This document shows, piece by piece, positions 6,973 to 56,870 of a DNA stretch of 64,000 nucleotides. Made by a program: the position numbers and the translations under genes. Source of the DNA: Fibrobacter sp. (GTDB lineage Bacteria > Fibrobacterota > Fibrobacteria > Fibrobacterales > Fibrobacteraceae); the NCBI GenBank assembly GCA_031271785.1, contig JAISUZ010000082.1, positions 1-64,000 of the forward strand, written 5' to 3'. Position 1 is the stretch's first letter; every line of letters begins with the position of its first letter. A model generated the notes under the pieces. It worked only from the letters and a program-made list of their open reading frames with translations. It was not told the DNA's origin and ran no database searches.

Positions 6973-7094
6973 GGGCGTGCCCCGGCTTTTGCCTTTCGGC
7001 ATTGCAAACCGAAGGCCGGGTCGGCGTGTCTCCGGGCTACCCTCCGGTCGGTGCTGCGCACTGCGCATAAATGCGCACCCTCCGCCTGCCTCAC
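6973..7094 (-). repeat. Family A GC-rich element, copy 2
   Basis: Reverse-strand copy in the convergent gap between cpoB and the 7538-8482 gene. It has GGCGTGCCCCGG at one end and CCTCCGCCTGCCTCAC at the other. A small internal palindrome replaces the usual GCGC hairpin. Confidence 0.7.
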
Positions 7095-22078: not shown

Positions 22079-22253
22079 GTGAGGCAAGCGGAGGGCGGCG
22101 AAGCCGGTGTACAGCACCGACCGGAGGGTAGCCCGTAGCTACGCCGACCCGGCGCTTTAGAGTGGATATTCATTTGGATCCTCGGGTCAAGCCCGAAGAT
22201 GACATTGGGTTGCGCTTGTCCGTGATGAATTGGAATTGCGCCGGGGCACGCCC
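22079..22253 (+). repeat. Family A GC-rich element, copy 3, interrupted
   Basis: Starts GTGAGGCAAGCGGAGGG and ends GCGCCGGGGCACGCCC. The central GGCGC/GCGCC hairpin is split by about 80 bases holding a GGATCCTCGGGTCAAG palindrome (22175-22206). The 25 bases before it also match those before copy 1 (GGAACCGTGCGAACATTGC). Confidence 0.7.
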
Positions 22254-24415: not shown

Positions 24416-25912
24416 ATGCGTTTTTTTTGCGGTTTGCTTTCGGCCCTATTTTTGAATGTTGCGTTTGCGCGCGAGTCGTTTACGGTGGGCACAGAGTTGA
24501 ATCTCGGGTTTTATGGGGCGCCGACGGCGCCTGAGTTTGCTCTGGATACGGTAGATCGTTACGGGGGGAATTGGCGCGGGCTTCAGATTCCGCTTTCTAC
24601 CGCGCGTTCTTATGAAAGAATTGATCCGTTTTTTGCAATTTTTTTAGAGGGCGCTTATAAAGACTTTCAAGTGCGTTTGGATTTTCCGCTCCGTAAAGAT
24701 TTGGAGGCGTGGTACGATGATAATCTCAAGACAAATGTTACATTGAACCCTTCAAACCTTGATATCAATGTGCCGCTTGAGGGTTTTGCGAAATGGGATT
24801 ACGGCGCGGGTTTTATTCAATTCGGGCGTTTTAAACCCGAACTCGGCCCTTCGCCGCATACGCTTGCGCTCGGAGGCGCTCCTTACCACGATGCGCTTTG
24901 GTGGAAGTTTGAACCCAATATTTTCCGTTATGATTTTTTATTCAGTTCTTTGAACGCTCATTTGCACGGGACGCCGGCAACTTTAGGGGCGGCTCCTCCC
25001 GAGGGTTCGGAAGCGTGGGAACAGGCGCACTGGAGCGTGGATAATCAGCGCAACCGGAGTTATACCGAGCCTTATAAGAATTTGGTTTATCACCGCCTCG
25101 GAGTAGAATTTTCGAGATTTTGGTTTTATGTGGTAGAGCAAAGCGTGATCGGCGGAAAGCAAGCGGAGTTCCGTACCATTAATCCGTTTATGTTTTGGCA
25201 TGATAATTTTGCGGCCGGTTACACGAAATCCAATGTGGTTCTTGAAATGGGAGCCCGTCCGATCCGCGGGAGCGCGTTTTACTGGCAGATGGCGATCGAA
25301 GAAGTGAAAAGTCCGGTAGGGGAAAAGGATGTGGATTCCCGCGGTATCGTGAGTTATCTTGTGGGGTATTCTCAAGAAATCCCGACGCAAAGATTCGGTG
25401 ATTTTAAATACCGTTTGGATTTGGTTTACACCGACCCGGCTTACGGGAACGAACGGCTACCGCTTTTGAAATACACGAGCCGGCGGATGTACCGCAGTAA
25501 TTACCGTGACCGTGAGGATGCCGATTTTGCGGATATGTATTTTGTGGATTATCCGCTTGGGTATGTCCGCGGTTCCGATGCGATCGATCTTTGGTTGACG
25601 ACCGGTTGGAAATACAAACAGCATGAAGTCTCTTTGGAACTCGCGTGGCTCCGTCAGGGTGACAAGGGAACGTATGCGGATTATGACGAAGCGCTTCAAT
25701 CTAAAAAGCCGCTTTCCGGGGTGGTGGAACGGCAGTATCTTGCCGATATCCTTTACTCTTACCGCCTGATGAATGCGTTTTCCGTGTTTGCGGGCGGCGG
25801 CGGGAGAAAGTACCGGAATTTGTCTCACGAGCAGGGAGAGAACGGGCAGGATTTTTGGTTTCGCGCCGGAGTGAAAGTTTCATTTTCTTATACGGTGGGT
25901 GCATCCGAATGA
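24416..25912 (+). CDS. Predicted outer-membrane beta-barrel protein, possibly Wzi-like
   Basis: 498 aa. Signal peptide at residues 1-18 (GLLSALFLNVAFA). The body has many alternating amphipathic strands ending in FRAGVKVSFSYTV, as expected of a large barrel. A central stretch, FGRFKPELGPSPHTLALGG followed by APYHDALWWKF and FLFSSLNAHL, recalls the capsule-assembly Wzi fold, where a glycine-proline loop precedes a pair of strands. It stands directly before ugd and the polysaccharide genes, which fits a surface-glycan role. The Wzi link is an inference; a generic porin remains possible. Confidence 0.6.
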   Translation: MRFFCGLLSALFLNVAFARESFTVGTELNLGFYGAPTAPEFALDTVDRYGGNWRGLQIPLSTARSYERIDPFFAIFLEGAYKDFQVRLDFPLRKDLEAWYDDNLKTNVTLNPSNLDINVPLEGFAKWDYGAGFIQFGRFKPELGPSPHTLALGGAPYHDALWWKFEPNIFRYDFLFSSLNAHLHGTPATLGAAPPEGSEAWEQAHWSVDNQRNRSYTEPYKNLVYHRLGVEFSRFWFYVVEQSVIGGKQAEFRTINPFMFWHDNFAAGYTKSNVVLEMGARPIRGSAFYWQMAIEEVKSPVGEKDVDSRGIVSYLVGYSQEIPTQRFGDFKYRLDLVYTDPAYGNERLPLLKYTSRRMYRSNYRDREDADFADMYFVDYPLGYVRGSDAIDLWLTTGWKYKQHEVSLELAWLRQGDKGTYADYDEALQSKKPLSGVVERQYLADILYSYRLMNAFSVFAGGGGRKYRNLSHEQGENGQDFWFRAGVKVSFSYTVGASE

Positions 25913-31730: not shown

Positions 31731-32857
31731 AGTTCAGGTTTTAAATTTAATATTTCATAATAAACTTCGGCTGTTTGTTCGGCGATGGTATCCCAATTAT
31801 AAAGTTCGCGGACAATATGAATGTAGTCGTGAGATTGGTTTTCTTGAATTTTTTCACGAATTCTTTCTCTTAATACAGGCACATTTTTTACCGGAAAAAA
31901 ACAATCTTCGGATAAAGGAACTTCTTTATTGGCGGGAATATCACTCACTAAAACATTTAAATTATAACTCAAAGCTTCCAAAAGAGCTATGGGTAAACCT
32001 TCATGGTAACTCGGAAGCACAAATAAACGGGCATTACCGAAAAAGGCTGTGAGTTCTTCGCCTTTAATAATGCCGGGGAGGATCACATTATTTTCTTTGG
32101 CGAAACGTTTTAATTTTAAGGAATATTCCGATTCGTGGTCTGCTCCGCCGGCAATCACGAGTTTTATTCCTTCCGGTAAGTTTTCACAGGCTTCAATTAA
32201 ATCGTGGAATCCTTTTTCTTCTACAAAACGCCCCAGGCTAAATACATATTTGTTAGGTTTAAGCATATGGCGTGTAAGCCATTCGGCTTCATTTTCAGCG
32301 TTACGTTTCGGAATATCGACTCCGTTTCGAATCAGAACCGTACGGTTGGTTTTATATTTGTTTTTCAAAAAATGGTTAATGCCTTCGCTGATAACAATGA
32401 TTTTATTGGCAAAAAAAGTACCGACCCGTTCTCCGGTTTTTAGCATGAATTTGGCGAGCTTTCCCCATTTTTGCCGAAGGTAATCCTGCCCGTGGTGCGT
32501 ATAAACCACTTTGGCGCCGAGAAGCCGGTAAAACGGCACAAAAAGCGCATTGCCGATACCGTGAATATGAACGATATCGGGTTTTAAATGCAAAATATAA
32601 AACCAACACAAAAACGTATGGGAAAGAGCTTCCAAACTGGATTTATGAATACAAGGAATCGGATGAACAAAAACACCTTTATAGGTATAGTTTTTACTGT
32701 GAGTGGTGTAATATTTCCTTGCGTAAAGATGAATTTCAAAATCGGGATGTGTTTTTAAGATTCGCGGATATAATTTTTGGCAGTGAGTTTCAATGCCTCC
32801 TAAAAGTTTAGGAATGCCGCGAGTGCCGACAACAGCAACGATATGTTTTTTCGCCAT
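31727..32857 (-). CDS. Family 4 glycosyltransferase
   Basis: 376 aa. GT-B marks are VAVVGTRGIPKLLGGIETHCQKLYP at the N-terminus, HIHGIGNALFVP and YTHHGQDY in the acceptor half, and FSLGRFVEEKGFHDLIEA and PSYHEGLPIALLEALSYNLNVL in the donor half. It resembles enzymes that build exopolysaccharide repeat units. The stop overlaps the start of the radical SAM gene by four bases. Confidence 0.9.
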   Translation of the reverse strand: MAKKHIVAVVGTRGIPKLLGGIETHCQKLYPRILKTHPDFEIHLYARKYYTTHSKNYTYKGVFVHPIPCIHKSSLEALSHTFLCWFYILHLKPDIVHIHGIGNALFVPFYRLLGAKVVYTHHGQDYLRQKWGKLAKFMLKTGERVGTFFANKIIVISEGINHFLKNKYKTNRTVLIRNGVDIPKRNAENEAEWLTRHMLKPNKYVFSLGRFVEEKGFHDLIEACENLPEGIKLVIAGGADHESEYSLKLKRFAKENNVILPGIIKGEELTAFFGNARLFVLPSYHEGLPIALLEALSYNLNVLVSDIPANKEVPLSEDCFFPVKNVPVLRERIREKIQENQSHDYIHIVRELYNWDTIAEQTAEVYYEILNLKPEL

Positions 32858-32925
32858 AAAAAGCTTTACCTTATCAAAAGGTATTAAAATATTGAAATTA
32901 AATATAGTTTAATTACATCCGAATT

Positions 32926-34251
32926 CTACCGGATTACTTTTGAATTTTGCGGTTCTTTATCTTTTGCTTTGCTGATCGAAAGTGTCCCTAAGCAAAAACC
33001 GATAAAGGAAAGACAAATATAATCGTTTCCGCCGGGTCTTCCGGAAATTAATAAAAATGCAATTAACGAAAGCGTAGTTAAAAGTCCCTGCTCGGCGACT
33101 GCACCCAAATAACGATGCCGAAAAAATTGAAATATAAGACAAGCAAAAAAGAACAGATAAGCCAAAAGTCCTATTATACCTTGCTCAATCAGAATGAAGA
33201 AAACAATGGATTCAAGTACACCGATTTCGCTATTCCCGACTTGGTCTCCGTAAGTATCACGTTCTATGATGGTGTTGTGGATGTAATTGAATCCGTGTCC
33301 GAAAAGTGGTTTTTCTTGAAGTTGAACGAGAGTGAAAAGAAGCTGGGTTTCACGTAATGAAAGAGAGGAGCCTCGGCCTTCTATACTGAAACTGCTGATA
33401 AGTGTCGCCATACCAAAAGAGAATAGAATGGCGAAGAATGTTCCGGATATTATTTTAAGCCAAAGGGGTGAGCGCAATAGGAAGTAGAAAGCGGAAAAAC
33501 CGGCGACACACAGCCAAGCAGTGCGTGAGCCGCTGAGGAAAAGGGTGAGGAATAGTGCGGAGTAGAGAAAAATTTTTTCGGATTTTTTGAAAAAAGTTTC
33601 TTTGAGAGTTGGAAGATAAAGGAAAAAAAGAGTGGAAAGAATCGTGCCGAGTGTTGTGGGGTGCGCTGTAGTAATGCAAATTCGGATTCGCCAGTCTTCA
33701 CTAAGCCCGATATTGGAGTTGAGATTATAATAACCGTTATAAACCGGAAATGCTTTTCCGATGATTTTATAAGGGATATTTGCACCAATGGCAGCTTCAA
33801 TGATTCCGAATCCGCAAAAAATAAGAATGGGTAAGTACAGAAATTTTAAAATGTGTTCTCTATTACAACTTCTGGCTAAATGATAAGTGAGGAAAAGAGG
33901 ACCAAAAATATCAAAAAAGATTCTAACACCTTGATACATATTACGAGTGAGATTACCGCTCATTTCAAAGCCCGTTGCAAAATACCCGAGAATGAGAAAG
34001 AAAATGGGAATTTTTAACGGAATGGTAGAAAGACTTTCTTTTACATTTTTCCAACGAGTACAAATTTCCGCAAGCCATGCTGCGTAAAATAAAACATGAT
34101 GTGCTGAAAGTATCGGCGTTTTAACAAACGCCACAACTGATGGAAAAAACATCAAACCGAGCAATAACGCAATCAAACGCTTTTCGGAATCATAATAAAT
34201 GATTACAAAAAGAAGCGCGAAGAAAACGAGATAAACCGGAAGAGAAAGCAT
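32926..34251 (-). CDS. O-antigen ligase/polymerase-like membrane protein
   Basis: 441 aa with about ten to twelve hydrophobic segments. A large periplasmic loop in the C-terminal half contains LQEKPLFGHGFNYIHN, the glycine-histidine pattern (PLFGxGxxxxH) of the Wzy/WaaL family, and FLSGSRTAWLCVAG precedes it. It could polymerise the repeat unit or ligate a chain to lipid A or another carrier. The phrase SGRPGGNDYICLSFIGF near the end is also typical. Polymerase and ligase cannot be separated by sequence alone. Confidence 0.82.
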   Translation of the reverse strand: MLSLPVYLVFFALLFVIIYYDSEKRLIALLLGLMFFPSVVAFVKTPILSAHHVLFYAAWLAEICTRWKNVKESLSTIPLKIPIFFLILGYFATGFEMSGNLTRNMYQGVRIFFDIFGPLFLTYHLARSCNREHILKFLYLPILIFCGFGIIEAAIGANIPYKIIGKAFPVYNGYYNLNSNIGLSEDWRIRICITTAHPTTLGTILSTLFFLYLPTLKETFFKKSEKIFLYSALFLTLFLSGSRTAWLCVAGFSAFYFLLRSPLWLKIISGTFFAILFSFGMATLISSFSIEGRGSSLSLRETQLLFTLVQLQEKPLFGHGFNYIHNTIIERDTYGDQVGNSEIGVLESIVFFILIEQGIIGLLAYLFFFACLIFQFFRHRYLGAVAEQGLLTTLSLIAFLLISGRPGGNDYICLSFIGFCLGTLSISKAKDKEPQNSKVIR

Positions 34252-37799: not shown

Positions 37800-37902
37800 G
37801 TGAGGCAGGCGGAGGGTGCGCGCTTAAGCGCGCAGTGCGCAGCACCGACTGGCAGGTAGCCCGGAGATACGCCGACCCGGCGCATCGCGCCGGGGTACGC
37901 CC
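37800..37902 (+). repeat. Family A GC-rich element, copy 4
   Basis: Uninterrupted ~103-bp copy: GTGAGGCAGGCGGAGGGTGC at the left, GCGCAGCACCGACTGG in the middle, and CCGGCGCATCGCGCCGG hairpin with GGTACGCCC at the right. Confidence 0.7.
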
Positions 37903-37934
37903 TTTCTTTTAAGTTCGATCCGGATTGCCGTGTT

Positions 37935-38318
37935 TTATCGGAATAGCGAGATTGCCTCAAAGTTCACTTTGTTCCTTTTCGCCCTCCGGGCTGCTTTTGC
38001 AGGCTTAAAAATCCTGAATTCACTTCGTTCAACGGATTTTTAATCGAACTCACTTCGTGAATTCTCATCTCGCTTGACATTCCTAATAAACAGAAAAACC
38101 CTCGCTTACAGCGAAGGCTTTTCTGTTTATCGGAATAGCGAGATTGCCTCAAAGTTCACTTCGTTCCTTTTCGCCCTCCGGGCTGCTTTTGCAGGCTTAA
38201 AAATCCTGAATTCACTTCGTTCAACGGATTTTTAATCGAACTCACTTCGCGAGTTCTCATCTCGCTTGACATTCCTAATAAACAGAAAAACCCTCGCTTG
38301 CAGCGAAGGCTTTTCTAT
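37935..38318 (-). repeat. Two 192-bp tandem repeats of the tRNA-Pro 3' tail
   Basis: Units at 37935-38126 and 38127-38318 are nearly identical, and a third partial unit begins at 38319 inside the tRNA gene. Each unit carries the last 16 bases of tRNA-Pro (AATCTCGCTATTCCGA), a terminator hairpin (AAGCCTTCGCT with AGCGAGGGTT) and several CGAAGTGA motifs. The period is 64 codons exactly. Each unit has an open frame of 38 codons starting MSSEMR and ending GRKGTK. Confidence 0.85.
38289..38312 (-). terminator. Intrinsic terminator of tRNA-Pro
   Basis: On the minus strand: GCCTTCGCT, loop GCA, AGCGAGGGTTTTT, ten bases after the tRNA. A duplicate lies 192 bases further on, at 38097-38120. Confidence 0.7.
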
Positions 38319-38321
38319 TTA

Positions 38322-38395
38322 TCGGAATAGCGAGATTCGAACTCACGACCTCTTGCTCCCGAAGCAAGCGCTCTACCAGACTGAGCTATATTCCG
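38322..38395 (-). tRNA. tRNA-Pro (anticodon CGG)
   Basis: A cloverleaf can be drawn by hand. The acceptor stem CGGAATA pairs with TATTCCG and the discriminator is A. The D arm is GCTCAGTCTGGTAGAGC, the anticodon arm is CTTGC-TTCGGGA-GCAAG with CGG, and the T arm is GTGAG-TTCGAAT-CTCGC. It reads CCG codons. CCA is not encoded. Confidence 0.95.
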
Positions 38396-52758: not shown

Positions 52759-52936
52759 GCGTGCCCCGGCGCATCCGGCATCACCGATTTATTCCAGACA
52801 AGCACAACTCAATGTCATCGCGGCCTCCGAGCCGGGATCCAAAGAAACATCCACCCGCCGGGTCGGCGTAGCTACGGGCTACCCTCCGGTCGGTGCTGCG
52901 CACTGCGCATAAATGCGCACCCTCCGCCTGCCTCAC
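52759..52936 (-). repeat. Family A GC-rich element, copy 5, interrupted
   Basis: GCGTGCCCCGGCGC at the left and CCTCCGCCTGCCTCAC at the right. The central hairpin is split by about 80 bases with a GTCATCGCGGCCTCC palindrome. Confidence 0.7.
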
Positions 52937-56770: not shown

Positions 56771-56870
56771 GTGAGGCAGGCGGAGGGTATGCGCTTGCGC
56801 ATAGTGCGCAGCACCGACCGGAGGGTAGCCCGGAGCCCCGCCGACCCGGCGCAACGCGCGGGGCACGCCC
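56771..56870 (+). repeat. Family A GC-rich element, copy 6
   Basis: Complete 100-bp copy in the convergent rnhA-aguA gap: GTGAGGCAGGCGGAGGGTAT to GCGCGGGGCACGCCC. Confidence 0.7.

Follow-up and report, generated by a model that had tools for sequence, protein, structure and literature searches.

Tandem units behind a Fibrobacter tRNA-Pro gene: probable relatives of E. coli rtT and candidate DNA hairpin elements

Introduction

What are the tandem repeats that follow a tRNA-Pro gene of Fibrobacter, each of them ending in a copy of the 3' end of that tRNA? The arrangement recalls the tyrT locus of E. coli K-12, where rtT has stood for decades as an unexplained feature of one operon. A preliminary description of the Fibrobacter sequence had drawn this parallel and suggested a convergent tRNA-tail RNA gene. 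A search of the open-licence literature gave no earlier account of such units in Fibrobacter. Here, we describe the units, their distribution and their kinship with rtT, and we weigh whether they are better understood as RNA genes or as DNA structures.

Results

The window analysed here is a stretch of 64,000 nucleotides whose contig (JAISUZ010000082.1) belongs to a 2.28-Mb genome. ARAGORN and Rfam locate a tRNA-Pro(CGG) gene at 38322-38395 on the minus strand, so that the units, which are downstream of it, lie toward lower coordinates. Both TRF and a repeat search found a period of 192, with two copies (37934-38125 and 38126-38317) that are 97% identical, with 5 differences, and a third one of 20 nt (38318-38337) that is the 3' end of the tRNA gene itself. 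The 16-nt tail AATCTCGCTATTCCGA, the original of which is at 38322-38337 (minus strand, exact matches), occurs exactly three times in the window and not at all on the other strand; since about 3e-5 occurrences are expected by chance, the copies behind tRNA-Pro(CGG) are far above chance. These results confirm the tRNA-Pro followed by 192-bp tandem repeats carrying the tRNA 3' end that had been described from the letters alone.

All the features of the array are on the minus strand. A palindromic, terminator-like stem (A-rich, GC, T-rich; 38278-38322), detected by the repeat search and following a family-wide pattern, separates the tRNA from unit 1; a simple terminator scan lists just its plus-strand reading, so that the stem is a presumed terminator. 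Unit 1 (38131-38275), delimited by the matches of two covariance models (R1 and R2, see below) and by folding, consists of an anti-tail (GGAAT..GCGAGAT), hairpins P2, P3, P4, P5 and P6, and a tail copy. The 5' strand of P1, GCGAGAT (38259-38265), repeats the tRNA tail in inverted orientation and was recognized by sequence match and as helix 1 of the covariation analysis. In the P2 hairpin GAACTCGC-GAA-GTGAGTTC (38238-38256; covariation alignment, loop survey and exact matches) the T-arm is copied first inverted and then direct, and the direct copy of the T-arm 5' strand, GTGAGTTCGA, spans 38236-38245, its original in the tRNA being at 38337-38346 (exact matches in both cases). It is followed by the P3 hairpin TTAAAAATCC/GGATTTTTAA (38197-38235; hairpin parse and covariation alignment), by the P5 minihairpin CCC-GGA-GGG (38174-38182, as a whole CCCGGAGGG; loop survey and sequence match) and, at the end of the unit, by the exactly matching tail copy at 38130-38145, identical to the tRNA at 38322-38337. 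A second terminator-like palindrome (38086-38130, repeat search) lies between units 1 and 2. Unit 2 (37939-38083; R1 and R2 matches and repeat search) has, by exact matches, its T-arm copy at 38044-38053, P3 at 38005-38043, P5 at 37982-37990 and the tail copy at 37938-37953.

Read along the minus strand, the order within a unit is GGAAT gtcaa GCGAGAT; GAG; AACTCGC-GAA-GTGAGTTCGA; P3; P4; P5 CCCGGAGGG; P6; AATCTCGCTATTCCGA, and in the window units the start, GGAAT..GCGAGAT GAG AACTCRC, repeats the tail and T-arm in inverted orientation. Each window unit holds, accordingly, one inverted and two direct copies of parts of the tRNA tail and T-arm, with four to five hairpins inside. Their folding is much stronger than that of shuffled sequences, with z = -4.8 as RNA and z = -5.1 as DNA. 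The inverted copy, the additional T-arm copy and this folding go unmentioned in the preliminary description. When the tRNA and a unit were folded together, the tRNA 3' half was predicted to pair with the inverted copy and not with its own arm.

A survey covering 43 tRNAs of the window genome found units at only two of them, Pro(CGG) and Pro(UGG), the latter being on another contig and having two units of its own. In the window, the array has housekeeping and cell-envelope genes on its flanks, with no integrase or recombinase among them, and a search with a Smr-domain neighbour as bait gave no matches. A promoter scan found no promoter inside the units. Apart from the array, the window carries a dispersed GC-rich repeat (1921-2171, 7015-7093, 22141-22153, 25428-25440, 37801-37881, 52857-52935 and 56772-56850), the ends of which, GCCGGGTCGGCGT and TGAGGCAGGCGGAGGGTGCGCGC, gave 7 and 5 window matches against 0.12 and 0 expected; this repeat is also present behind the Pro(UGG), Pro(GGG), Ser(CGA) and Arg(UCU) tRNAs of the window genome.

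We followed the units in other genomes, most of them metagenome-derived draft assemblies, with R1, a covariance model from 11 units, and R2, for which only Fibrobacter Pro(CGG) units and a stated structure were used. R1 matched 83 and R2 matched 87 of the 111 genomes of the family, R2 finding the window units at E ~3e-26, and R2 gave no match in 57 genomes of the phylum outside the family. A core sequence pattern tried on four genomes yielded no matches, the pattern being too strict. Among the ~60 loci fetched, the matches are immediately behind Pro(CGG), Pro(UGG) or Ser(CGA), save at contig ends, and in a well assembled Fibrobacter genome (G100), all 51 tRNAs of which were surveyed, units were found also at Arg(UCU), Gly(CCC) and Gly(GCC). 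Altogether, the units occur in seven genera of one family and at up to six tRNA types, and internal hairpin modules are common to different tRNA loci. Repeat number, which the preliminary description had proposed to compare among strains, ranges from 0 to about 6 and so is not fixed at one; at one and the same locus of a single genus, with equal upstream sequence and a related downstream gene, there are 0, 1 or 2 units. A terminator-like palindrome stands between tRNA and unit in 72 of the 85 occupied loci, and a terminator-like stem follows 40 of 126 tail copies.

In loci L111, L115, L122, L145 and L159, the first, full Ser(CGA) unit is followed by minimal units that consist only of an inverted tail, one P6-type hairpin and a direct tail, which suggests modular growth. 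Locus L159, an array of Ser(CGA) units, is on a contig assigned to Treponema (JAGCNW010000013.1) that we judged to be probably a mis-binned Fibrobacter contig, because its Ser(CGA) T-arm and two Glu(UUC) tRNAs are as in L122 and others.

The structure of the units is conserved and their primary sequence is not. Among 148 distinct aligned units, both-sided changes were observed in 46 of 48 pairs; in this alignment, which was fitted to the structure, 94.9% of the cells were paired (70.8% in shuffled and 31-45% in slid alignments) and the covariation score was 0.540 versus 0.154. A parse made without a covariance model also disclosed dozens of differing P3, P4 and P6 stems, nearly all of them Watson-Crick. 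As to coding capacity, the 38-codon frame MSSEMR..GRKGTK noted in the preliminary description is present in each window unit (38156-38272, minus strand, in unit 1), but a Tpr-like small peptide is unsupported: 66 of the 148 units lack the start codon, the frame between start and P5 scatters when taken modulo 3 (35:27:16), and the open stretch varies in length between <5 and about 38 codons. We judged the frame to be non-coding.

The ends of the units, in turn, match the tRNA behind which they lie. The tail of the own host gave a better match than that of another host in 32 of 32 Ser, 27 of 27 Pro(UGG) and 68 of 74 Pro(CGG) units, the set having been found with a Pro(CGG)-based model that is blind to other tails. 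In genomes with the tRNA variant GTGGGTCCGAATCCCGC, the units carry GTGGGTCCGA plus GCGGGAT, and in one of the genomes where Pro(UGG) has ATCAG instead of GTCAG the unit has ATCAG as well.

To place the units among known families we used an Rfam scan of 4227 families, in which RtT (RF00391) has a gathering score of 45 bits. The RtT model matched at least 11 Ser-linked Fibrobacter units from end to end (model 1-130) with 22-33 bits, that is, below 45, the top unit scoring 33.4 bits. The window's own units had no RtT match up to E = 1, and they are tied to RtT through their Fibrobacter relatives. In the reciprocal search, R2 on 200 kb of K-12 returned all four rtT units as its top four matches (26.6-28.4 bits), the next one, with 12.6 bits, lying behind argQ. 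R3, a model with the tRNA-derived arms removed, gave 6 matches at E<=10 on the same 200 kb, all 6 on rtT or arg units, these matches being individually weak (E 0.6-7) and the rtT copies not independent of one another. Read directly, E. coli rtT shows the same order of parts as the Fibrobacter units, with tRNA-Tyr ends, and the Fibrobacter units lie behind a tRNA and end in a copy of its tail, as RtT does. These sequence comparisons make it very probable that the Fibrobacter units and E. coli rtT are related. The parallel with tyrT/rtT was thus correctly drawn, and is stronger than had been claimed, while its attribution to convergence is probably wrong in view of the reciprocal model searches. 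The Fibrobacter units share a class with rtT but are not formal members of Rfam RtT.

Three further RtT-like units were found in the K-12 argV, argZ and argQ spacers, with a tRNA-Arg(ACG) tail (argV-argQ, 32650-33560 of the fetched stretch L266); the RtT model gave them 31, 29.2 and 22.8 bits, below the RtT cut-off. In common with the Fibrobacter units, each holds an anti-tail and P4, then CCCGAAGGG, a short P6 and a tail copy, here exactly that of tRNA-Arg; unlike them, they have neither the T-arm copy nor P3, and they sit between the tRNAs of one operon. Sequence resembling rtT was also seen on a few E. coli plasmids, in 18 places.

Whether the hairpins are maintained as RNA or as DNA can be approached through their imperfect pairs, since RNA tolerates G-U pairs but not A-C mismatches and DNA favours neither. 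In P3-P7, the ratio of G-U to A-C was 27:26 in distinct stem versions and 21:17 when counted as context-distinct events, these versions sharing ancestry, so that the events are not fully independent, and the alignment being fitted to the structure. In the tRNA stems the ratio was 36:5 (p = 0.0002 versus 27:26 and p = 0.002 versus 21:17), and in the terminators of the unit loci 21:1. P2 alone gave 11:1, as may be explained by its 3' strand being a fixed copy of tRNA sequence. A cruder, greedy parse of single hairpins gave 58:31 in the units versus 38:11 in the terminators (p = 0.18). In addition, P2, P3a and P5 have C(GNA)G loops in which N varies freely (in P5, GAA 86, GGA 23, GTA 23 and GCA 7), and the C(GNA)G loop is a signature of exceptionally stable DNA minihairpins (PMC4686876). 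Taken together, the lack of a G-U excess and the C(GNA)G triloops suggest DNA hairpins rather than a selected RNA. The position of the units behind a terminator-like stem in most occupied loci points the same way. Against the DNA reading stand the cruder parse, the P2 ratio and the case of E. coli, where rtT has been detected as an RNA that is processed out of the tyrT transcript, as quoted in PMC4986893. We therefore consider the chances to be about even that the units are maintained at the DNA level rather than for a selected RNA function.

Discussion

On balance, and as the simplest account, we lean toward reading the array as two tandem RtT-like elements that would act as a tRNA-tail-anchored DNA hairpin element. 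The unit is a multi-hairpin some 150 nt long, and a terminator-like palindrome sets it apart both from the tRNA and from the copy that follows. Recombination or slippage between the direct repeats of the tail would add or remove copies, a process that would always leave the tRNA intact. The stems could stay perfectly Watson-Crick if the hairpins were re-copied from their own arms by template switching, if a protein recognizing the DNA hairpins caused them to be kept, or both, and template switching inside the hairpins would let the inverted tail track changes in the direct one. Any unit transcript would then merely result from transcription running through the first terminator, and the E. coli rtT RNA might perhaps be such a by-product too. 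It weighs against this reading that neither a recombinase nor a replication protein was linked to the units, the Y1 transposases not tracking them.

The reading of the units as a functional structured RNA, which we regard as rather unlikely, supposes that read-through of the terminator produces an rtT-like RNA whose anti-tail pairs with the tRNA 3' half or with the unit's own tail copy, and which tunes tRNA maturation or acts in trans. It would account for the strong covariation of nearly every pair; the predicted fold, in which the tRNA 3' half can swap onto the anti-tail, and the terminator-like stem after 40 of the 126 tail copies would fit it too, as would the reality of rtT RNA in E. coli (PMC4986893). 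However, G-U is no commoner than A-C in P1 and P3-P7, in contrast to the tRNA stems and the terminators from those genomes, the loops are GNA triloops of DNA type and not tetraloops of RNA type, and the units stand behind terminators with no internal promoter. A gene for a short basic peptide like E. coli Tpr has practically no chance of being the explanation: the 38-codon frame of each window unit suggests it, but neither frame nor length is conserved and the start is missing from many of the units.

Integrase footprints are typically direct repeats of 15-20 nt that run from the T-loop to the tRNA end. The tail repeats resemble such footprints, and it might be that the units are miniature integrative elements inserted at the T-loop or tail by a trans-acting tyrosine recombinase, the repeats being attachment-site duplications; the presence or absence of units at one locus within a genus and the hairpin modules common to different tRNA loci agree with this. 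We hold it to be improbable, since integrative elements bring a fixed attachment sequence, whereas here the tail, the T-arm copy and the inverted copies all follow the host tRNA. There is, moreover, no integrase among the flanking genes of the window, no unit copy was found in the viral contigs searched, and the distribution is lineage-restricted and vertical-looking. Template switching, for its part, yields inverted and direct copies around a palindrome, which is the disposition observed, and quasipalindrome correction can give perfect stems; with a fluid copy number and no linked recombinase, the units could then be neutral debris of slippage and template switching at a self-complementary tRNA 3' end, persisting without function. 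This is quite improbable in our opinion, because repeated accidents would not produce an ordered layout and a non-tRNA core (the GATGAG linker, CCCGNAGGGC, GCGNAGC loops and the order P4-P5-P6) that recur across genera, tRNAs and E. coli.

Compared with known systems, the tRNA-anchored hairpin units share with REP/BIME elements and their RAYT (Y1) transposases the character of short extragenic DNA hairpins in tandem groups. They differ in being found only at tRNAs, in copying tRNA sequence and in showing no correlation with Y1_Tnp genes, which are present in 44 of the 111 family genomes, unrelated to the units, and absent from the window genome. As in the att duplications of tRNA-targeting integrative elements, the tRNA 3' end is directly repeated; unlike those elements, the Fibrobacter units are gene-free, of about 190 bp, carry inverted copies too and have ends that follow the host.

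The closest likeness is to rtT itself (RF00391; rttR, tyrTV operon), with tandem units behind a tRNA, each with the tRNA tail at its end, and the common series of anti-tail, GAUGAGAAC, T-arm copy GUUCGA, P4, CCCGAAGGG, a hairpin with a GAA or GCA loop, and tail. Copy number is variable in rtT as well, 1-14 per E. coli genome with a median of 3. On the other hand, the Fibrobacter units belong to another phylum and have Pro, Ser, Arg and Gly hosts instead of Tyr, their P3 and P6 are longer, an intrinsic terminator-like palindrome precedes them, they score under the Rfam cut-off, and their Tpr-like frame is unconserved. We put forward, as a tentative proposal that is somewhat less probable than its contrary, that rtT belongs to a class of tRNA-anchored DNA hairpins, spread across phyla, whose ends are rewritten to fit the host tRNA and which are kept as DNA structures, the rtT RNA being a by-product. 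Be that as it may, a feature of one E. coli operon now has relatives in another phylum, at six tRNAs and fitted to each host. These relatives provide comparative data in which structure, tail identity and GNA loops are conserved and peptide and primary sequence are not, and which make it possible to test a DNA element against an RNA gene.
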